36,794 nucleotides of DNA from Campylobacteraceae bacterium (GTDB lineage Bacteria; Campylobacterota; Campylobacteria; Campylobacterales; Sulfurovaceae), in the NCBI GenBank assembly GCA_027065385.1, contig JAMOOP010000110.1:1-36794 (forward strand). The letters run 5' to 3'. Position 1 is the first letter of the stretch; the number at the start of each line of letters is the position of its first letter. The translations under genes and the position numbers were made by a program. The notes under the pieces were generated by a model. The model saw only the letters and a list, made by a program, of their open reading frames with translations. It ran no database searches and was not told the DNA's origin. Positions 1 to 24,532 of the stretch are shown here, in pieces.

Positions 1-105
1 CTTTGGGTCTTTATGAAGATGATGAATGTCTTAAAGATTTATGATGTTGATTCTCTTTTTGCCTTTAAAGAGCAGATTGGGGATATGATGGGATTGGATA
101 TTTAA
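1..105 (+). CDS. possible 3' end of an unidentified gene (partial)
   Basis: A reading frame is open from base 1 to a TAA at 103-105. It would give the last 34 residues of a protein ending FKEQIGDMMGLDI. The 5' part lies outside the window. I do not recognise the family, and the tail is too short to prove coding; a second frame is also open up to about base 44. Its stop codon shares a TTAA palindrome with the stop of cmr6 on the other strand, so the two genes would converge with a 3-base overlap. Confidence 0.3.
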   Translation, partial: LWVFMKMMNVLKIYDVDSLFAFKEQIGDMMGLDI

Positions 106-1538
106 GTTGTGTAGAAAGGTATGAATAAATCTCTATTTTTTAATGGAATAATGGTCTTAATATATGTACTTTCTATTTGAAAATAGAGAGGTTCTTTAAA
201 ACTCTTCCAACTATCAACATAAACCCTTTTCTCATTTTTAGAATTAATTTTACACTCTCCAAAATATTTAATATAAGACTTATCAGCTAAAAGAAGAATA
301 TCTCCTTTTTTTATCTCTTTTATACGCCTTATATCTTTCTTACTACTAGAAGTGTATTCCCAATAATTATTTTCCAAAAAAGATTTTATTTTATTATCAT
401 ATTCCTCTTCTATTGTATTAACTATCCAATACTTTTGTCTTTTTAATATTAAATCTTTTTGGAACTTTTCCAACTCTTTTTTAGCTTCTTCAATTTTTGG
501 AGAATTTGGATAATTTTTAATATAATCTTCAAAAGCCCTTTTCTTATATTTTTTATCAACTTTTAAAACAGCTTCCCATTTTTTAATTGCTTCTTTTTGT
601 TTCTTTTGCTCTTTTATTTCTTTGATTTTCTCTTCTATTTTTTCTTTTTTCTTTTTTGCCTCTTCTATATATCTTGATTTAGGATATTTTTCTATAAATG
701 CCTCTACAGTAGCTATTTTTTCTGTATCTCTCATTATCTCTAAAGCTTTTTCTTCTTCTGATTTTTGAATATTAAAATACCCATAACCAACAGAAGTTTT
801 TGCCCCAATACCAAAGACCTCTAATGATTGATAAATCTCATCTTTTACGCAATCAAGTATATCTCCTTTAAACTTTTTACCCTCTAATACTACGGATTCT
901 TTGGTAGCTATAACAATTTCAAATTTAGAACCTTTAAGTGTCAAAAAATTAATAGGATTTGGGTTTTGAGTATCAGTTGGAAACTCTAAATTATTATAAT
1001 ATTCTTGATAATGATTATTCATAATATCTAATTGAATTTTTGACTCTTTTGTAAAAGCATCAAAAAAGATAACTTTAGCTTGTTGGTCATTTGAACCAAA
1101 TATCTTAACAAAACCATCATCTTCAAAAGCTTTGTCTTCATCACCACCAAAATATTTTACAATAATAAAACTTCTCAAAGAGCCTCTAATAGATTGGGCA
1201 GGGATATAAGGAACTCCATAAATATGATGTAGTGTAATAGAAGTTTCATAAACGGAAGTACTACCTATTCCTAAAGCCAATCTCCAATTATTTGTAGCCA
1301 AAATTGATAAACTATTTGAATAGATACTCTTTATACTATTATAATATTTTTCAAATTTATTTGGCTTTATATTTGTAGCACCACTATTTTTAATACTAAA
1401 ATTATACTTGTTTTTGTTATAATTGTAATCTACTTTTATAAATTTATTAAGCTTTAAAGAAAAATTATCAATATCTTTGACCTCTAAATTATTTCTCTTC
1501 AACAGCTCACTTGTATCTTTTGGTATAAAATATCCCAT
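102..1538 (-). CDS. cmr6: Cmr6 RAMP protein with C-terminal coiled coil and PUA/EVE-like domain
   Basis: This is the Cmr6 (Cas7-like) subunit of the type III-B complex, which caps the backbone at the 3' end of the crRNA. Residues 1-256 are the RAMP core: YIPAQSIRGSLR (111-122) is the family's SxKG-like motif, and GIGAKTSVGYGYF (243-255) is the glycine-rich loop near the usual C-terminus. The protein then continues for about 220 residues, whereas Cmr6 is normally about 250-340 aa in total. Residues 260-365 are a Lys/Glu-rich helical linker with two copies of a YPxS..IEEAKK motif (280-297 and 338-355), resembling BamD/TPR-type helical repeats. Residues 368-478 contain YWIVNT, then KKGDILLLADKS, KYFGECK and a Val-Asp-Ser-Trp segment, a layout like PUA/EVE-superfamily domains. 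It is the last gene of the operon, one base after cmr5. The Cmr6 call is firm; the PUA/EVE call is a motif-based inference. Confidence 0.9.
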   Translation of the reverse strand: MGYFIPKDTSELLKRNNLEVKDIDNFSLKLNKFIKVDYNYNKNKYNFSIKNSGATNIKPNKFEKYYNSIKSIYSNSLSILATNNWRLALGIGSTSVYETSITLHHIYGVPYIPAQSIRGSLRSFIIVKYFGGDEDKAFEDDGFVKIFGSNDQQAKVIFFDAFTKESKIQLDIMNNHYQEYYNNLEFPTDTQNPNPINFLTLKGSKFEIVIATKESVVLEGKKFKGDILDCVKDEIYQSLEVFGIGAKTSVGYGYFNIQKSEEEKALEIMRDTEKIATVEAFIEKYPKSRYIEEAKKKKEKIEEKIKEIKEQKKQKEAIKKWEAVLKVDKKYKKRAFEDYIKNYPNSPKIEEAKKELEKFQKDLILKRQKYWIVNTIEEEYDNKIKSFLENNYWEYTSSSKKDIRRIKEIKKGDILLLADKSYIKYFGECKINSKNEKRVYVDSWKSFKEPLYFQIESTYIKTIIPLKNRDLFIPFYTT

Positions 1539-1539
1539 T

Positions 1540-1926
1540 TTAATTATCCTTTACGATTCGACCCTCTGCGAAGCGTCTAAGCCAAGAAAAAAAAGCTAAA
1601 ACTTCAATTGTTACCTTTTTATATTTTGTAGAATCAAGCCTAATAAGTCTCTTCATTAACTCTCTATCACTATTGATTGCCGTTTCATCATTATATCGTT
1701 CTCTTAACCACTCATCTACTTGGTTATAGATAAGTGTATAGGTAGCATTATCTTTTGAAAAAATAAATGCAAAAGTAGCACTAAGCCCATTGGTTTGAAT
1801 ATATGATGGAATTTTTTTACAGTATGATTTATACTCTGATTGTTTAATTCCTTGATTTTGTACGGCTTCATCTACTTTCTCATAAGCAAAAATAGCTCTC
1901 TCTTTTTCAATATCTCTAATCGGCAT
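1540..1926 (-). CDS. cmr5: Cmr5, small subunit of the type III-B complex
   Basis: The product is a 128-residue, largely alpha-helical protein of normal Cmr5 length. It opens with a helix rich in Glu/Arg (ERAIFAYEKVDEA) and ends with a Trp-containing helix, EVLAFFSWLRRFAEGR, which is typical of the family. Cmr5 copies form the minor filament beside the Cmr4 backbone and help hold crRNA and target RNA; it has no catalytic role. The start overlaps the end of cmr4 by 11 bases and the stop lies one base before cmr6, so translation is probably coupled. Identification rests on these sequence features plus position between cmr4 and cmr6. Confidence 0.9.
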   Translation of the reverse strand: MPIRDIEKERAIFAYEKVDEAVQNQGIKQSEYKSYCKKIPSYIQTNGLSATFAFIFSKDNATYTLIYNQVDEWLRERYNDETAINSDRELMKRLIRLDSTKYKKVTIEVLAFFSWLRRFAEGRIVKDN

Positions 1927-2842
1927 GACTTCCTCCTATGGTTATAGATACTATCCCCTTACCAATAGTTGCATTACCACCTATTTGAATGGTTGATGGT
2001 ATAGTAGAGGTAAAAAAATTCATTACCTTATCTGCTGTAGCTAACTCTTTTGCTTCATTAAACTCAACCCGTGCCATTAAATCAGAAGCCAAAGCCAAAG
2101 AGTACATAATAGTCTCACTTGGTAAATACTCTTCTGTAAACAATGCACCTATTTTTTTATCCACTGTTCCTGTTGTATTATCTATTTTAGTTCTTGTAAT
2201 AACCTCTGTAGAGAGTGTTATAAAGTCCTTAAAATCATCATCAGACACAATAATAAGTTTTTCTTTTATATCTTCATTATCTAACTCTTTTGACAAAAAC
2301 TCTGCTATGATTTGAGTATTGTTATCTTTTGAAATAGAGATTTGATACTCTTCTAATATTACTGCTCCACTATCAATATTGATTTTGGAATCATTGGTAA
2401 TAGTATTCTCTTTAATCGTAAAATTTTGTTCGTTGTTTGAGATTTTTAAATCTTTGGAAAATCTATTTAAAACAGATGGACAAGTGACCCATGCAAAAAT
2501 ATCTTTTGCTGATTTGATAGGAAAAAGCAAAATTCGTGCATCACTAAAACCCAAAGCACCTGAAAACTCTTGTGCTTTTTTCTCAATAAATTTTTCTTTG
2601 ACAAGTCTTGGAGCATTGCTATCATCATATCCAAATGTTAGATGTGTCTTTATGCTTGTTGTCATATCTCGTCTCTCAAAAGTCTCTCTAATAGAGCCTT
2701 TTAGACTCGAACCCTCAATTTTTGGAAAACTTGTATGCCCTTCTCTTTGAATTGGCATATCTACTATTCCCAAGTCTGAACCACTTCCAACATGAGTTGG
2801 GCTTATTGTGTGAATGTAAAATATTTTTGCTTGTTTAAACAT
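1916..2842 (-). CDS. cmr4: Cmr4, backbone RAMP and target-RNA nuclease subunit
   Basis: Cmr4 forms the repeated backbone of the type III-B complex and cuts target RNA at 6-nt intervals. The N-terminus matches the family closely: THVGSG (16-21) followed by LGIVDMPIQRE. By alignment from memory with the Pyrococcus protein, Asp28 corresponds to the catalytic Asp26, so target-RNA cleavage should be retained. IEGSSLKGSIRETF is the RAMP motif that contacts crRNA, and the C-terminal GGNATIGKGIVSI is the glycine-rich loop. At 308 aa the length is normal. The start overlaps the CARF-nuclease gene by 8 bases and the end overlaps cmr5 by 11 bases. Confidence 0.95.
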   Translation of the reverse strand: MFKQAKIFYIHTISPTHVGSGSDLGIVDMPIQREGHTSFPKIEGSSLKGSIRETFERRDMTTSIKTHLTFGYDDSNAPRLVKEKFIEKKAQEFSGALGFSDARILLFPIKSAKDIFAWVTCPSVLNRFSKDLKISNNEQNFTIKENTITNDSKINIDSGAVILEEYQISISKDNNTQIIAEFLSKELDNEDIKEKLIIVSDDDFKDFITLSTEVITRTKIDNTTGTVDKKIGALFTEEYLPSETIMYSLALASDLMARVEFNEAKELATADKVMNFFTSTIPSTIQIGGNATIGKGIVSITIGGSHAD

Positions 2843-4151
2843 TGGTTATCCTTTTTAGTGTTTTTATTTGTAAATCTTTCATTAGAGTTTGATATGTACT
2901 ACTTGTAATTGTCTGTTCTCTTTTATCTGATTTTGTCAACTTTATTTCAAAATAACATAAATCAAAATCCAATTCCCCAAATAATTCTTGAAATTTATTT
3001 CTAATCTCTTCTGTTACTAAAGACAATACATCTTTGTTATATAAATAGACAACAAGCATATATTTTTTAAGAGATTTATCTTTGAATTTAGACTCATTCC
3101 ATTTAGCTAACTGCTTATCTCTTATTTGAGTAATAAGCTTTTCTCTATTGAATTTGTCTATTAAATAACTTATAGGTTTTACTTCTACCCAAACTATATC
3201 TTGATTATTTTCAAGCATAATATCTATATCGGTCAAAGATTTACCCAATGGAACACCATGCCCCACTTTTTGGTATTCAAAATCTAAACATTCATCAATA
3301 AAATTTTGCTTAAAATACTTTTCAATAAAATATTCATAAACCTTGTACTCTATAAAGTGACCAAAAACATCTTTTGCTAAAGGAGTTTTTTTGACTGTTT
3401 TTAAGACTATTTTCCCAAGAGGGGTTATTTTGTTATCATTATATAGCCCTAACTTTTTTAACTCCTTTTCTCTTTCATCTTTGATTAATTCTAAGTTATC
3501 AAGATATGGATAATAGAGTTCTAAAAGTCCCCTATCTATCTCTATAGGTAATGGCTTTATAAAAATCAACTCACTCTCTTTATCTTCAAATGTATAGACT
3601 ATTTCATAGTTAAAAATCTGTGCAATAGCTGAAAAATATGGAATAATCCCTTTATATCCCCCTGTAATATTAAAAATTACACTATCTTTAGTATATACAC
3701 CATCTTTTTTTTCTATTATATTAAATAGTTTATCAATTAAATTATCTATACCCTTTTCAAAATTGGCTTTTAAATCAACTCTTAATTTTTCAATAATATA
3801 ATTATTATCAAAAAATATAGTTATCTTTTTCTCTTTTAAAATCTTCTTTAAATCTCCATTTAAAATTTCACAAACTATCACCGATTCAATCGTATCTGTA
3901 GCAATAAGATAAACCTCAATCTCTCCATATTTTTCTTGAAGTTTAGTTATACTTGTTAGTTCAGCACAAGAGTTCTCTTGTTCTACAAATTTAATTAATT
4001 TATCTTTTATTCTTTTTACTCTTTTAATTTCTTCATTATATTTACTATAAGATTTATCTTTAATAGCATTATAATAACTTTTAATATCACTATTTTTTTC
4101 CAAATAATTGGTAAGTAAAGATGTTCCAACGGTAGTAATTATTTTTTTCAC
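2835..4151 (-). CDS. CARF-domain protein with C-terminal PD-(D/E)XK nuclease
   Basis: This is the likely ancillary effector of the type III system. Residues 1-205 look like a CARF domain of the APE2256/Csx1-like class: a first strand ending in TVGTSLL (7-13), and NITGGYKGIIPYFSAIAQI (161-179), the typical ligand-loop helix. A short winged-helix-like segment follows (KITPLGKIVLKTV, 241-253). The C-terminus has the layout of a PD-(D/E)XK nuclease: Glu268 in a helix, LTDIDIML (306-313, Asp308/Asp310), VWVEVKP (320-326, Glu323/Lys325) and Gln342. The inference is that cyclic oligoadenylate made by Cas10 binds the CARF domain and switches on cleavage of DNA or RNA, as in Can1/Can2/Card1. There is no HEPN RxxxxH motif, so it is not a Csm6/Csx1 RNase. 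The gene overlaps cmr3 by 4 bases and cmr4 by 8. Confidence 0.85.
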   Translation of the reverse strand: MKKIITTVGTSLLTNYLEKNSDIKSYYNAIKDKSYSKYNEEIKRVKRIKDKLIKFVEQENSCAELTSITKLQEKYGEIEVYLIATDTIESVIVCEILNGDLKKILKEKKITIFFDNNYIIEKLRVDLKANFEKGIDNLIDKLFNIIEKKDGVYTKDSVIFNITGGYKGIIPYFSAIAQIFNYEIVYTFEDKESELIFIKPLPIEIDRGLLELYYPYLDNLELIKDEREKELKKLGLYNDNKITPLGKIVLKTVKKTPLAKDVFGHFIEYKVYEYFIEKYFKQNFIDECLDFEYQKVGHGVPLGKSLTDIDIMLENNQDIVWVEVKPISYLIDKFNREKLITQIRDKQLAKWNESKFKDKSLKKYMLVVYLYNKDVLSLVTEEIRNKFQELFGELDFDLCYFEIKLTKSDKREQTITSSTYQTLMKDLQIKTLKRITNV

Positions 4152-5176
4152 TTTTTCACCTCCGATAAAATAACTATTCCATATCCCTCTTTAGCTCTTT
4201 GGTCTGAAATTGATTTTTGATGAAATATATCAATTAATTGATTTTTATCTCCCTCTAAAATCTCAAAATAATAGACACTTCCACTAGGAACTGTTTTAAA
4301 CATCTCTTTTGGTCTATTTGTCTTCATATCAAATCCACCAATAGATTGAGATTTTCCTATGGCACAGGTAAGAAGTTTTAGTTTTATCCCTTTATACTCT
4401 CCTATTAAACTCTTATCATCTATCCAACTAGGAAGCCACCCTTTATCAAAAATAGCTGGAGTCAATAGATATAGTTTAAACATAGAACTCTTGATAGTTA
4501 TTGGGATAAAAGGTAAATCCAATAATTTCAACTCTTTATAATTTGCTCCTTTTGCCTCTCCTCCTAAGCTCATTAATCCTGAACTATTTAACTTCAACTC
4601 TTCAAATTCAACCACTATTTTAAACGCATATCTTAACATCTGAACCCTATACAAAAGTCCCTCTTTTGTTATTCTAGTTTTTGTATCTCTACCTATGCCT
4701 ATTTTATTCTCTAAACTTATAAACTTCTCTAACTTTTGACCATATAAAGTATCATCTCCTTTCAAATAATCATCAAATGTAATATCATCAAAAAGTTTAT
4801 CATCAATCCCTTCTATCTCCTCATTCAAAGATAGATTGTAATCCAAAGGGCTATTTGTTAAAAAATTTTGACTCAATTTTAATGTAGTTATCTCTTCACT
4901 GTTTAATCTATGCACACAATCTTTTGGAACTCTATATAGAAGTTCATTATTCATAGATAGATAAATCCCCTTTATAACTAAACTCTCTGTTACATCATCT
5001 TTATAGATATTTTTGAAATCATTAGGATTTTGAGAAAAATATGTTCCTCTCAATGCTCCATAGATAGTAGTTGGAGTAGGTAAATTCAGACTATCCGTCC
5101 AACTATCATCACCTTTACCAAAAGGTTTACCATCTCTAAATATTACTGTATCAAGTGGCTCAATCTCTATTATCAT
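4148..5176 (-). CDS. cmr3: Cmr3, crRNA 5'-handle-binding subunit
   Basis: Cmr3 is the Cas5-like RAMP that binds the 5' tag of the crRNA and docks onto Cas10. The N-terminus IEPLDTVIFRDGKPFGKG is the family signature (PLD.x.FRDGRPF), followed by LPTPTTIYGALRG, the RAMP motif. A late SIGGFDMKTNRPKEM and SVYYFEI segment and the C-terminal KEGYGIVIL glycine motif complete the pattern. The 342-residue length is normal. The gene overlaps cas10 and the CARF-nuclease gene by 4 bases at each end (ATGA-type junctions), so it is translated within the same polycistron. Confidence 0.93.
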   Translation of the reverse strand: MIIEIEPLDTVIFRDGKPFGKGDDSWTDSLNLPTPTTIYGALRGTYFSQNPNDFKNIYKDDVTESLVIKGIYLSMNNELLYRVPKDCVHRLNSEEITTLKLSQNFLTNSPLDYNLSLNEEIEGIDDKLFDDITFDDYLKGDDTLYGQKLEKFISLENKIGIGRDTKTRITKEGLLYRVQMLRYAFKIVVEFEELKLNSSGLMSLGGEAKGANYKELKLLDLPFIPITIKSSMFKLYLLTPAIFDKGWLPSWIDDKSLIGEYKGIKLKLLTCAIGKSQSIGGFDMKTNRPKEMFKTVPSGSVYYFEILEGDKNQLIDIFHQKSISDQRAKEGYGIVILSEVKK

Positions 5177-6804
5177 CCTATCTCCTTATCTATAAATCTA
5201 CAGATATATAACCCATCTATGAAGTTTCTGAAATTTACAGTATGTATTTTTCGTATAGACTCTATCATTGGGTCAATATTCTCTTTTGCATTATCGACTT
5301 TCAAAGACCTCTTTAGTGTTCTCTTTAATTCCAAATAGAGCATAGAGTTCAAACTATTATCAAGCTCTCCATTCTCATCACACATCAACAGAAACTCTTT
5401 GTCCAATACAGAGATAAACTTATCTGAAAAATTCTCATTCAATTGCTTCGTAATAAAGTCCAATTCAAAAAAAGATTCAAACTTTAAAATAGTCTCTCTT
5501 ATCTCTCCAGAGCGTTTCAAGACAGTTAAACATACAGCATCTTTTCCACTACTCTTTTTGGCTTTCTTCTCTGATTTTCTAACCTCACCAAGAACCACTC
5601 CTAATGATGTTTTATAATGAGCAATAACCACTCCTGATGAAAAAGTAAAGCTATCTCTTAGTCCATACTTCTCTTTCAAAGGTTCACTAATCAACTCACT
5701 AAATCGACTATTTAACTCTTTTAATACTTCAAACAGCTTATTAATATTAACAAACCCTAAAAAATCCTCTCCACCTGCATAAACAGTCATACCTTTTGGC
5801 TCTTTTAGTATCTCCTTTGCTTTTTTCGCAAAAATTGCTAGATTTGAACTAATATCTTTATGAAAATCTCTTAATCTACTTTGGTCATTGAGTTTTTGAC
5901 CTGAAAGCCATTTTCCCATATCATCGCCATCAAACATAATAACAGCATAATATGAAGTCTGTTTATATTTTCCTTTTATAGCTTTTTTAAATTCTTGAAA
6001 CTCTTGTTTAGCATCTTCTAATGAATTGCTAACATCATTCTTTTTAAAGAAATCTTTTGTTAAATTTTCTTCATAAAAAAGTTGACTATCTCTCTGCTTT
6101 TTTCTAATCTCTAAAGGAATATTCATAATAGCAATATCAGCAGTAGAATCAAAACTTTCTACATCCATTATTCTCTTAGTATAACAGATTCCACAAAGTC
6201 CCTCTTTATCTTGCAGAAGATTATCATATACTAATTCTAAATCTTCTCTTTGTAAATCAATATAGAACTTCATTCTTTTTTTGTGATTTTTAGAATCTTT
6301 ATCTTTATAAACAGCAATATTTCTCTCTCCACATATAGAACATTTTCTACCAACTTCTCCTAATTGAGTAAAGAAACGGCTATTTTTCGCTCCTGCCAAT
6401 CGTTTTTCAACCTCATCAAAAGCCTCTTTATAATCTCCACCATATTCACTAGCACTCCAATAGATTTGAAAAAAGTTTTCTATATGTTGCTCTATTATAG
6501 GACTTTGGTTCTTATTAAGAGTTTTAAAATAGTTTAATATTTCATCACTCACATTAGAAGCAAAACTCTTTAACTCATCTTCACTCTCAAAAGAGACTTC
6601 AACTAAAAATCTATTAGGATAAGAGTTTTTACCCTCTGTCTGTTGAGGAAATATTATGGTAGCACCTCTATTTTTTGCATACTCAATTCCCACTTCTGAC
6701 ATCTTTGATAAAATAGTACTTCCACCATAAAGCTCTTTTAGCTTTCTTGCTTGTGAGATAAAATCTTGAACAGGGGTTATGGTTAAAAGGAAAAGGTATC
6801 TCAT
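5173..6804 (-). CDS. cmr2: Cas10/Cmr2 without HD domain; probable cyclic oligoadenylate synthase
   Basis: Cas10 is the large signalling subunit of the Cmr complex. The 543-residue protein begins directly at the Palm-1 region (FLLTITPVQDFISQARK), where many Cmr2 proteins have an HD nuclease of about 150-250 residues first; that domain is absent. A C4 zinc finger is formed by C155xxC158 and C204xxC207. FDGDDMGKWLSG (291-302) is the Palm-1 acidic site, and AGGEDFLGF (343-351) is the Palm-2 loop, GGED in place of the usual GGDD, a conservative change. FSSGVVIAHYKTSLG (388-402) is also characteristic. Cyclic oligoadenylate synthesis therefore looks intact, while single-strand DNA cleavage is probably lost. 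The start overlaps cmr1 and the end overlaps cmr3, each by 4 bases. Confidence 0.95.
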   Translation of the reverse strand: MRYLFLLTITPVQDFISQARKLKELYGGSTILSKMSEVGIEYAKNRGATIIFPQQTEGKNSYPNRFLVEVSFESEDELKSFASNVSDEILNYFKTLNKNQSPIIEQHIENFFQIYWSASEYGGDYKEAFDEVEKRLAGAKNSRFFTQLGEVGRKCSICGERNIAVYKDKDSKNHKKRMKFYIDLQREDLELVYDNLLQDKEGLCGICYTKRIMDVESFDSTADIAIMNIPLEIRKKQRDSQLFYEENLTKDFFKKNDVSNSLEDAKQEFQEFKKAIKGKYKQTSYYAVIMFDGDDMGKWLSGQKLNDQSRLRDFHKDISSNLAIFAKKAKEILKEPKGMTVYAGGEDFLGFVNINKLFEVLKELNSRFSELISEPLKEKYGLRDSFTFSSGVVIAHYKTSLGVVLGEVRKSEKKAKKSSGKDAVCLTVLKRSGEIRETILKFESFFELDFITKQLNENFSDKFISVLDKEFLLMCDENGELDNSLNSMLYLELKRTLKRSLKVDNAKENIDPMIESIRKIHTVNFRNFIDGLYICRFIDKEIG

Positions 6805-7583
6805 AGTATTGCCTTTTTAAATTCTGATAATCGTCCATTATCTATTGGTTTTGTTGCCTTTAAAGTGGTAATAATCGGTCTATATCTCGTTCCATCCTTA
6901 ATTACAGATATATAGATAGGAGAAGCATATCTTCCATTTTTTACCGAACCAAACATACCATCTTTATTATGATGATGTGTTGCAGAACTAATTGTTTTTA
7001 TCAAACTATTTATATCGTTATACTCTTTTCCAATTTCAATATTTTTGATACTTTCAATATAAGGATACTTGTTATCAGACTCTTCATCAAAATTAGAATT
7101 TATTTTTTGAATAAGATTTCTAATGTACTCAATATTGATATTATCTTGAACTTGAATACTCCCAAATCCTCTACGACTTCTTTGACCAAATCCACCTAAA
7201 ATAGAAGTAAGTTCAAAAATATCATTGACAATATCTAATTCTCTTCCAATAAACTCTATTTTAAAATTTTGATTTTCCTTATAACCATTAATTCTAAAAC
7301 GACTATTTTTATGAGGTAAAGGGTCTATCTGTTCTGTCTGTAAATATCCCATCAATAATTTTATTCGAAAACTACTCTTTACAGCACTATTTTCATTTGC
7401 ACCACCAAACAACAATGACTCTTGTTTTTTTAACTCATCTAAACTCAAATTCCCATGAATAGCCCTCCACCAAAACCTCATAGCACCTTTTATAGCTGGT
7501 GGTCTTAATTCTGCTACTGTTGTATCTTCTCCGTGCATCAGCATTGGTGTTATTAATTTACACTCTACGGCTTCTATTTCCAT
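6801..7583 (-). CDS. cmr1: Cmr1 RAMP protein, first gene of the Cmr operon
   Basis: Cmr1 sits at the tip of the type III-B complex and helps capture target RNA. The signature LRPPAIKGAMRFWWRAIHG lies near residues 26-44, and LGGFGQRSRRGFGSI is the glycine/arginine-rich loop of the family. At 260 residues it is at the short end for Cmr1. The start is supported by a Shine-Dalgarno sequence (AAAGGG) about 8 bases upstream. It is the first gene of the seven-gene run and lies 79 bases downstream of the sensor kinase gene on the same strand. I see no clear terminator in that gap, so read-through is possible. Confidence 0.93.
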   Translation of the reverse strand: MEIEAVECKLITPMLMHGEDTTVAELRPPAIKGAMRFWWRAIHGNLSLDELKKQESLLFGGANENSAVKSSFRIKLLMGYLQTEQIDPLPHKNSRFRINGYKENQNFKIEFIGRELDIVNDIFELTSILGGFGQRSRRGFGSIQVQDNINIEYIRNLIQKINSNFDEESDNKYPYIESIKNIEIGKEYNDINSLIKTISSATHHHNKDGMFGSVKNGRYASPIYISVIKDGTRYRPIITTLKATKPIDNGRLSEFKKAIL

Positions 7584-13746: not shown

Positions 13747-14739
13747 ATGGCTGTTAAAGTAGCAATAAATGGATTAGGAAGAATAGGTAGATGTGTAGCA
13801 AGAATTATTGCTGATAGAGATGATGTTGAACTAGTAGCAGTCAATGCAAGTGGAGCTGAAAATATTATTGAATATGGTTTAAAATATGACTCTGTGCATG
13901 GAAAAAGATTAGATGTTAGTGTAAAAGATGGATTTGTAAATATTGGTTCAACTAAAGCTAAACTATTCTCTGAAAGAGACCCTGCAAAAATTGCTTTTGC
14001 AGAGACTGGTGCTGAACTTGTATTAGAGTGTACGGGTGCATTTTTAACACAAGAGTCTGCTCAAGCTTACATTGATAATGGAATTAAAAAGGTACTATTC
14101 TCAGCACCTGCAAAAGATGCTACACCAACATTTGTTATTGGTGCAAATGAAGAGAGTTATGCAGGTGAAGCAATAGTTTCAAATGCAAGTTGCACAACAA
14201 ATGGGTTAGCACCTGTAGCTAAGGTGTTAGATGATAATTTTGGAGTGGAAGCTGGACTAATGACAACCATTCATAGCTATACAGGTTCTCAACCTATTTT
14301 AGATGGAAAACATAAAAAAGACCCAAGAAAAGGTAGAAGTGGAGCTGTAAATATTGTACCAACTACAACAGGGGCTGCAAAAGCTATATCTAAAGTGTTA
14401 CCAAACTTAGCAGGAAAACTGAATGGTCAAGCATTAAGAGTTCCAACTCCTGATGTATCAATGGTTGATTTAACTGTAACTCTATCTAAACGCGTAACAC
14501 TAGATGAGGTAAAAGAGGCATTTAAAGTAGCAAGTGAGACTACACACAAAGGAATTTTAGGAGTTGATGAGGAGTATCTTGTATCACAAGATTTTGTAGG
14601 TGAGAGTAGAAGCACAGTTGTTGCTATGGATACTATCCAAGTAATTGGTGATAATATGGTAAAAGTTCTATCATGGTATGATAATGAGTGGGGTTACTCG
14701 TGTAGGTTAGTTGATATGGCAGTTCACATTAGCAATTAA
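13747..14739 (+). CDS. gap: glyceraldehyde-3-phosphate dehydrogenase
   Basis: A 330-residue phosphorylating GAPDH. The Rossmann start is [10 protein letters not shown], the active site is SNASCTTN with Cys149, and His175 lies in [22 protein letters not shown] is the conserved C-terminus. The residue that normally confers NAD preference (Asp in the AIND segment, position 34) is Ala here, in [10 protein letters not shown], so NADP use is plausible, suiting a gluconeogenic or autotrophic role. The start has AAGGA about 8 bases upstream. It heads a gap-pgk-tpiA run: the next gene starts 10 bases after its stop. Confidence 0.95.
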
Positions 14740-14749
14740 GGAGGCTTTT

Positions 14750-15949
14750 TTGAGAACAATTAAAGATTTAGAGAATATCGAGGGTAGAAGAGTATTTATA
14801 AGGTGTGACTTTAATGTCCCAAAAGATGAAGATGGTAATATTACTGATGATAGAAGAATTAGAGGTGCATTGCAGACCATTAGATACTGTTTAGATAGAG
14901 ATTGTAAAGTAATCTTAGCTTCACATGCAGGGCGACCTAAAAAAGGAGTTTATAATGAAAACCTCTCAATGAAAGCTGTTGTTGTAAGACTCAGAACTCT
15001 TCTTAAAATTGCTGAAAAGATTACTTTAGCAAAAGATGTAATAGGCGAAGATGCTCTTTCTAAAGCTAAAGAGCTTAAAGCTAAAGAGGTTTTAGTTCTT
15101 GAAAATCTAAGATTTGAAGAGGGTGAAGAGAAAAACGATATAGAGTTTGCTAAAAAGTTAGCTACTATGGCAGATATTTATATTAATGATGCTTTTGGTG
15201 TATGTCATAGAGCTCACGCATCTGTTGAAGCTATGGCTAGATTATATGATAAAGAGCATAGAGTAGCAGGTTTTTTACTCTCTAAAGAGGTAACATTCTT
15301 TGAGAAAAAACTTGATAATCCTATGAGACCATTTGTTGCTATTGTTGGAGGGTCTAAAGTTTCAGGAAAACTTGAAGCACTTAGAAATCTAGTAGAAAAA
15401 GTTGATAAGATTATCATCGGTGGAGGAATGGCATTTACATTCCTAAAAGCACAAGGGTATGAGATAGGAAATTCTTTAGTTGAAGATAATCTATTAGATG
15501 AAGCTAGAACTATTATAATTAAAGCTCGTAAAAAAGGTGTTAAGTTCTATCTTCCAATAGATGTAGTAGTAGCTCCAGAGTTTTCTGAAAATTGTGCAAT
15601 AAAATATCTACCTGCACAAGAGATACCAAAAGGTTGGATGGGACTTGATATTGGTCCAGCATCTTCAAGACTCTTTAGAGAGGTTTTAAATGATGCTCAA
15701 ACTATTATTTGGAATGGACCTATGGGTGTTTATGAGATGGATAGATATGCAAAAGGTAGCCTAAAAATGTCTCATAATATAGCAGATAGTTACGCTACAA
15801 CTATTGTTGGTGGTGGAGATACAGCAGATTTAGCACAAAAAGCAGGAGATGTTGAAGAGATGACATTTGTTAGCACTGGTGGGGGAGCTAGTTTAAACCT
15901 AATTGAAGGTAAAGAGTTACCAGGTATTACAGCACTTCAAGCTGAATAA
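14750..15949 (+). CDS. pgk: phosphoglycerate kinase, glycolytic-operon copy (TTG start)
   Basis: Phosphoglycerate kinase interconverts 1,3-bisphosphoglycerate and 3-phosphoglycerate with ATP. Motifs: [12 protein letters not shown] with substrate-binding residues, [46 protein letters not shown] and the late GGGDTADLA and [14 protein letters not shown]. At 399 aa it is of normal length. The start is TTG at 14750, because a perfect AAGGAGG (14738-14744) lies 5 bases upstream and overlaps the gap stop codon; the in-frame ATG inside gap has no ribosome site. Compared with the usual LGRPKG, this copy has HAGRPKKG. A second full-length pgk lies at 23321. Confidence 0.95.
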
Positions 15950-23320: not shown

Positions 23321-24532
23321 GTGATAAGTAATATTAAATATATGGCAGGAGTAAAGAGTTTAAAAGATATTGATATTACAGGAAAAAGAGTATTAATCCG
23401 TGTGGACTTTAATGTTCCAATGGATAATGAATTAAATATCTCTGATGATAGAAGAATTAGAGAAGCAATTCCTACTATTAACTACTGTATTGACCATAAT
23501 CCATGCTCTATTACTCTAGTTACCCATTTAGGGCGACCAAAAGGGGAGTATGAAGAGAGATTTAGTTTAAAACATATTCAAAAGAGACTAGAGAGACTTT
23601 TACATAAAAAAGTAGAGTTTGTAGAAGATTTTGAAGCATCAAAAGATGAAATAGCAAGTTGTTCTTTAGAGAGAGTATTTCTTTTAGAAAATATCCGTTT
23701 TAATAAAGGTGAGAAGAGTAATGATTTAGAGTTTGCTAAAAAACTCGGTTCAATTTGTGATGTTTATGTAAATGATGCTTTTGGTACAGCTCATAGAAAA
23801 CACGCTTCAACTTATGGAATTACTGACTTTGTTGAGACTAAAGTAGCAGGTTTTTTAATGAAAAAGGAGATAGAAGCATTTAGTAAAGCTTTAGAGAGAC
23901 CAACAAAACCTATAGCATTAGTTATTGGTGGTTCTAAAATATCTTCAAAAATTACACTTCTAAGTGCTATTATGCCAAAGATTGATAAACTTATTATTGG
24001 TGGAGCTATGAGTAATACTTTTCTATACTCATTAGGGTTTGATATGCAATCTTCTCTATATGAAAAAGAGTTTACAGATATAGCAAAAAAGGTTTTAGAA
24101 GATGCAAAAGAGCATAGTGTCAAAATATATATGCCTGTTGATGTTGTAATTACAGACTCTATAGAAAATCCTATTGATGTCCAAGTAGTCCCAGTTCAAG
24201 ATATATTAGAGGGATTTAAAGCAGTAGATATAGGACCTGCTACTGTTAAGCTATTCTCTGAAGCTGTGCATTTATCAAATACTATTATTTGGAATGGACC
24301 TATGGGAATTTATGAAAAGAGTAGATTTTCAAGAGGAACAAATAGATTAGCAAGTGCTATAGTAGATAGTTATGCCTATACAGTAGTAGGTGGAGGAGAT
24401 ACAGCAGATGCTGTTGAGAAAGCAGGAGAAAATGAAAACTTTAGCTTTATTTCAACAGGAGGTGGAGCTAGTTTAGAACTTTTAGAGGGTAAAATATTAG
24501 CAGGATTTGAGAAACTTGATAGAAAAGATTAA
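23321..24532 (+). CDS. pgk: second phosphoglycerate kinase (GTG start)
   Basis: A complete second phosphoglycerate kinase of 403 residues. Motifs: RVLIRVDFNVPMDN, THLGRPKGEY, VFLLENIRFNKGEKSND, NDAFGTAHRKHAST, VIGGSKISSK, IWNGPMGIYEKS, GGGDTADAVEKAG and [14 protein letters not shown]. All look catalytically competent. It clearly differs from the gap-linked copy along its length, so it is an old paralogue or a transferred gene and not a recent duplication. The GTG start has AAGGAG 5 bases upstream; the internal ATG at 23342 lacks one. It is coupled to the nucleotidyltransferase gene, suggesting a role in a sugar or storage-carbohydrate branch. Confidence 0.93.
   Translation: MISNIKYMAGVKSLKDIDITGKRVLIRVDFNVPMDNELNISDDRRIREAIPTINYCIDHNPCSITLVTHLGRPKGEYEERFSLKHIQKRLERLLHKKVEFVEDFEASKDEIASCSLERVFLLENIRFNKGEKSNDLEFAKKLGSICDVYVNDAFGTAHRKHASTYGITDFVETKVAGFLMKKEIEAFSKALERPTKPIALVIGGSKISSKITLLSAIMPKIDKLIIGGAMSNTFLYSLGFDMQSSLYEKEFTDIAKKVLEDAKEHSVKIYMPVDVVITDSIENPIDVQVVPVQDILEGFKAVDIGPATVKLFSEAVHLSNTIIWNGPMGIYEKSRFSRGTNRLASAIVDSYAYTVVGGGDTADAVEKAGENENFSFISTGGGASLELLEGKILAGFEKLDRKD

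Follow-up and report, generated by a model that had tools for sequence, protein, structure and literature searches.

A type III-B CRISPR (Cmr) operon at the edge of a Sulfurovaceae contig reads as one whose last gene, cmr6, runs in frame into a complete two-gene candidate defense cassette, and an insertion sequence (IS) now splits the joined gene. We regard this fusion architecture and its splitting as very probable. The interpretation we favor, at a probability of roughly 0.5, is that the cassette became wired onto the type III-B complex, with RNA guidance replacing its own sensor, before the IS severed the gene. The window—the whole 36,794-nucleotide stretch analyzed here, from contig C110—holds the first part of the gene, and the rest lies on contig C163 (Table 1).

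The 478-residue ORF described in an earlier note exists, as do its Cmr6 core, the two YPxS..IEEAKK repeats of its in-frame tail, and the KKGDILLLADKS and KYFGEC motifs of its C-terminal domain. It lies, however, on the minus strand—forward translation of positions 102–1538 meets many stops—and represents an incomplete gene. The TIGR01898 match, above the curated cut-off, spans residues 84–255, and residues 2–256 align with the solved Cmr6 structure PDB 9arw (E = 1.5e-42). The gene closes a complete same-strand operon, Cmr1–Cas10–Cmr3–CARF–Cmr4–Cmr5–Cmr6, the order of which is identical in the relative G091; the two Cmr6 cores share 71.5% identity, a conservation on par with that of Cmr1, Cas10, and the rest of the operon. 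No HD domain was matched in Cmr2/Cas10. The CARF protein, the C-terminal half of which carries a D..EVK motif, is likely a cyclic-oligoadenylate effector. In G091, a cas6-like gene (L075:7514-8377) stands immediately upstream of cmr1; it is absent from the same place in the window. Farther along the window, about 8 kb separate two phosphoglycerate kinase genes (14711-15949 and 23321-24532), the second adjoining a fused sugar-nucleotide transferase/phosphomannomutase-like gene.

Table 1. Features of the fused locus, in window coordinates or, for the severed part, in coordinates of L058 on contig C163
Feature	Position	Strand	Evidence or remark
Right end of unclassified multicopy IS	1..123	plus	Terminal inverted repeat CATACCTTTCTACACAAC (minus-strand reading)
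Present-day ORF, 478 aa	102..1538	minus	Cmr6 core, linker, and EVE-like domain; IS-truncated
8-bp target-site duplication AATAAATC	124..131		Pairs with C163 left flank ending at 73112
PUA/EVE/YTH-like domain, about residues 368-472	124..437	minus	AlphaFold2, Foldseek, homologs
K/E-rich linker, residues 257-367	438..770	minus	Two YPxS motifs (residues 285, 343)
Cmr6 core, residues 1-256	771..1538	minus	TIGR01898, 125.2 bits (cut-off 51.1)
Cmr5	1540..1926	minus	TIGR01881
Cmr4	1916..2842	minus	TIGR02580
CARF protein, APE2256/CARF7 type	2835..4151	minus	PF09651 6.5e-18; PADLOC CARF7 9e-60
Cmr3	4148..5176	minus	TIGR01888
Cmr2/Cas10	5173..6804	minus	TIGR02577; GGED motif
Cmr1	6801..7583	minus	TIGR01894
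ATPase remainder, 376 codons	L058:13974-15113 (C163)	minus	AAA_21/HEC-02A-like
Partner gene, 166 aa	L058:13477-13977 (C163)	minus	Overlaps ATPase stop

The present end of the ORF is set by the IS. Nine further contig ends in the genome carry positions 1–123 in near-identical form up to ...GTTGTGTAGAAAGGTATG (GGTATG at 123), where the sequences diverge; the 123 positions include the apparent end of a transposase frame, with a stop at 103-105, and supply residues 473–478 of the ORF (IPFYTT) and its stop codon. The contig breaks within the IS, and each of the genome's 17 IS ends (10 right, 7 left) lies at a contig end. ISAs1 was considered as the IS family and rejected: the single clear ISAs1 match belongs to a different element.

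Target-site duplications identify the other half of the gene. Among IS left flanks, the AATAAATC pairing is unique to C163; other IS flanks pair through duplications of 8–9 bp (C67/C75, C53/C41, C7/C140, and C122/C83). Joining the C110 and C163 flanks with one copy of the duplication yields an uninterrupted frame of 848 codons; control joins with six other IS left ends show no duplication match and give frames of 472–500 codons. The 478-residue ORF is thus the remnant of a gene cut by the IS, with 376 further codons on C163, and a window-limited reading of a contig-end gene in a metagenome-assembled genome (MAG) can conceal half a fusion protein. The insertion looks recent, because several IS copies are identical over the compared end and both half-frames are still open. 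An IS-supplied start for the ATPase (an ATG at the IS edge, opening a frame MDLLEK...) was rejected, since the purine stretch lies too near the ATG for a ribosome site.

The 848-residue pre-insertion frame reads Cmr6–linker–EVE-like domain–AAA_21 ATPase, the ATPase being HEC-02A/OLD/AriA-like. Membership in HEC-02A follows from two PADLOC models (1.3e-73 and 2.6e-66); Pfam AAA_21 matches at 3.8e-22, and Walker A (GENASGKS, 517) and Walker B (ILFWDEP, 725) motifs are present. The partner has a single PADLOC match, PDC-M29B (2e-7), and falls outside HEC-02B and the HEC-02 partner models. It carries a D..ELK motif, typical of PD-(D/E)XK nucleases, and this motif is the one feature that suggests a nuclease-like protein; a single-sequence structure model was too poor (pLDDT 61) for its Foldseek result to have meaning.

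Two other loci of the genome bear on neighboring subjects. A second HEC-02A-like ATPase, intact, is encoded on contig C53 (L081:3947-5893); its N-terminal domain is a different one (IEKDDILYFGFESNILVVAQYTG) that may also have a PUA-like fold, and its partner has a D..EVKDY motif. C163 also carries, at a distance of about 39 kb from the severed ATPase, a CRISPR-Cas locus of type I, I-B-like by appearance, with cas genes at L114:10710-18167 (Cas1, Cas4-like, Cas3, Cas5, Cas7, and Cas8b-like frames) and an array of 22 repeats (GTTTCAAATCCCATAGGGACAAAGTTCAAAT) at L114:9120-10576. The Cmr operon of the window is without cas6, and its complex may draw crRNAs from this type I locus.

The linker behind the Cmr6 core is shared with relatives. 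Its YPxS motifs read YPKS and YPNS, and it faintly resembles BamD/YbgF through the YPxS motif (TIGR03302, 25.3 bits, under the curated cut-off of 81.4). In G091 the same linker follows Cmr6 and leads into a small helical domain; linker and helical domain also end TIGR03986-family RAMP proteins of several other Sulfurovum relatives, which suggests that the tail may be an exchangeable module of type III end subunits in this group. TIGR03986-like type III RAMP proteins with the Cmr6 linker occur at L006 (tested), L011, L012, L013, and L017, and their small helical C-terminal domain follows the pattern ..DEDKxxLEEAIKxVYPxLNAKKKKQF... Short helical tails are common among true Cmr6 of the family and order, where Cmr6 open frames measure 261–465 aa, barring the window and one 213-aa contig-edge fragment. 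Whether such tails are ordinary in related Cmr6, a point raised in the earlier note, thus has a divided answer: linker tails are ordinary, whereas the EVE-like domain and the ATPase are unusual.

The PUA/EVE-like call made in the earlier note holds at the level of the predicted fold. A moderate AlphaFold2 model from a ten-row alignment (pLDDT 78.1, pTM 0.73) has as its top Foldseek matches the VcaM4I EVE domain (E = 7.6e-4, probability 1.00, TMq 0.56), MJECL36, YTH domains, and DrmA(B), with a TMq of 0.66 to 2p5d. Sequence scores fall below Pfam cut-offs: Dev_Cell_Death (DCD, PF10539) reaches 15.5 bits on the domain, under its gathering score of 27.8, Pfam EVE (PF01878) has no match in the 478-residue protein or in its own genome, and a PDB sequence-profile search with the domain returned no meaningful match. 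EVE, DCD, and YTH domains of the PUA superfamily bind modified bases (PMC7641849, PMC7897488).

Homologs argue that the region at about residues 368–472 is a genuine module. One GTDB scan, queried with a four-row alignment, recovered homologous domains at 9 independent loci, far beyond chance (3 in Campylobacterota and 6 in Methylococcales). The domain starts at the start methionine in all nine, and an AAA_21-type ATPase follows it in eight; in the three loci tested, the best PADLOC match of these ATPases is HEC-02A/B. At the ninth locus, L026, the sequence after the domain appears unlike the ATPase.

Comparison with free homologs separates the histories of the two parts. The nearest free relative, L024, is a 483-aa EVE-ATPase with a partner gene overlapping its stop, flanked by housekeeping genes (an aminopeptidase gene and a lyase-type gene) on a 5-kb contig in which no CRISPR genes were found. 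Its ATPase is 64% and its partner 55% identical to those of the fused locus. Whenever two free homologs are compared, identity is higher in the EVE-like domain than in the ATPase; whenever one of the pair is the fused copy, it is lower. Maximum-likelihood branch lengths for the fused copy and the free homolog are 1.08 vs. 0.29 for the EVE-like domain and 0.37 vs. 0.35 for the ATPase. Seven free homologs share 32 invariant columns in the EVE-like domain and 77 in the ATPase; of these the fused copy retains 20/32 and 70/77, respectively (Fisher P = 0.0014), the losses in the EVE-like domain including RAK of YWLVRAKW and NGY. Relative-rate tests for the EVE-like domain gave P = 0.003–0.04 with five of six outgroups and 0.17 with the sixth; for the ATPase, none of the six was significant. 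Judged by these sequence comparisons, the loss of conservation is domain-specific: the EVE-like domain is eroded and the ATPase constrained. The EVE-like domain may have diverged in part before the fusion arose, and the lost residues could instead reflect a new ligand.

The fusion is known from one genome, a MAG with a contamination estimate of 5.8%, and is now interrupted, so lasting selection is not demonstrable by recurrence. Within the family (175 genomes), no second Cmr6 with an EVE-like domain or ATPase was found, nor was a second Cmr6–EVE-like fusion in all 34 genomes of the genus. The EVE profile gave no other Cmr6 fusion in 397 genomes of the phylum, and Cmr6 frame lengths in 399 genomes of the order indicated none. 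The GTDB-wide scan placed the EVE-like domain only at protein N termini. Searched with the 478-residue protein, plasmids returned only ordinary Cmr6 lacking the tail and phages returned no match; viral contigs searched with the EVE alignment, the L024 partner, and the L024 EVE-ATPase held no relatives. A literature search for Cmr6–ATPase fusions and HEC-02 found no described case.

The chief rival to our interpretation is a neutral accident in which a deletion joined cmr6 to a downstream EVE-ATPase without functional coupling: Cmr6 would have kept working with a passive tail, and the ATPase would have been tolerated or have lost its role until the IS ended it. A single occurrence, decay of the EVE-like domain at conserved sites, and a gene now split by an IS are what such an accident would leave, and we consider it possible, if rather doubtful. 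Against it, the ATPase keeps its invariant residues (70/77) at a branch length like that of the free homolog, and the partner gene is intact and still 55% identical to its L024 counterpart; constraint therefore appears to have persisted on the ATPase but not on its own sensor. The same asymmetry bears on the proposal, made in the earlier note, that through the EVE-like domain the Cmr complex recognizes modified nucleic acid or is anchored to RNA or ribosomes. The fold and the modified-base binding of such domains (PMC7641849, PMC7897488) speak for it. The proposal is weakened, to the point that we find it improbable, because the domain is the usual N-terminal sensor of a defense ATPase, arrived with that ATPase rather than alone, and is the very domain that lost family-conserved residues (12/32, VRAK and NGY included).

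Least probable, and in our judgment very unlikely, is an assembly or binning chimera, with Cmr6 and the EVE-ATPase encoded separately all along. The source is a MAG with some estimated contamination, and about 440 bp separate the junction from a contig end. The IS, however, accounts for that contig end; an open frame runs through the linker, the EVE-like domain, and an independently identified target-site duplication into the ATPase; a chance join would seldom preserve the reading frame precisely at domain boundaries; and base composition is uniform across all fusion parts (24–27% G+C).

Under the interpretation we favor, the ATPase gene of a stand-alone cassette would have been joined in frame to cmr6, probably replacing the small helical C-terminal domain found in the closest Cmr6. 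Cmr6 and Cmr1 cap the 3′ end of the crRNA (the seed), where pairing with target RNA starts (PMC8376896). The guide would bring the Cmr6-borne ATPase to the target transcript, and the ATPase would add a second output beside Cas10/CARF signaling. The EVE-like old sensor, to judge from its lost conserved residues, would have been freed from recognition duty. The IS then split the gene, so that the window keeps a truncated Cmr6–EVE-like protein and C163 an ATPase frame without its head. A constrained ATPase beside an eroded sensor-like domain would fit RNA guidance replacing EVE-type sensing. That the ATPase and the Cmr complex were functionally coupled through RNA guidance is a proposal we hold at somewhat less than even confidence; more tentative still is the specific mechanism, in which crRNA-guided target binding would recruit or activate the OLD/HEC-02-like ATPase and its partner at the Cmr6 end without a second messenger, the EVE-type sensor being retired.

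The fused locus shares parts with several known systems and departs from each. It resembles type III-B Cmr6 (TIGR01898; PDB 9arw, 3x1l) in the core, residues 1–256, and in operon order, but known Cmr6 stop near the core or bear a short helical tail, whereas this one adds the EVE-like domain and the ATPase. With the candidate HEC-02 cassette (PADLOC; an ATPase and a small nuclease-like partner) it has in common the two-gene order, the ATPase match, and an EVE-like N-terminal domain as in L024-L032; here, however, the ATPase stands behind Cmr6, the partner is of PDC-M29B type, and the EVE-like domain is eroded. EVE, DCD, and YTH domains share its predicted fold, although it lies below Pfam cut-offs and lacks several subfamily-invariant residues; a survey describes these domains alongside modules for restriction, toxin–antitoxin, and other functions, and none of the terms Cmr, RAMP, or type III turned up in a search of its text (PMC7641849, PMC7897488). 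OLD, Gabija GajA, PtuA, and AriA (PARIS), which appear as secondary PADLOC matches, have in common with it an AAA_21/AAA_15 ABC-type ATPase in an anti-phage context; unlike them, the fusion ATPase has no TOPRIM match, has a distinct partner, and is joined to a Cas subunit.

The fusion raises a testable question, namely whether OLD/AriA/HEC-type ATPases can be triggered by any sensor placed at their N terminus, and it provides a blueprint for effectors of this kind that are switched on by programmable RNA guides. If the coupling was functional, the locus is a natural instance in which simple gene fusion put an innate anti-phage ATPase under the guidance of CRISPR RNA, with a domain-specific loss of conservation in the displaced sensor.
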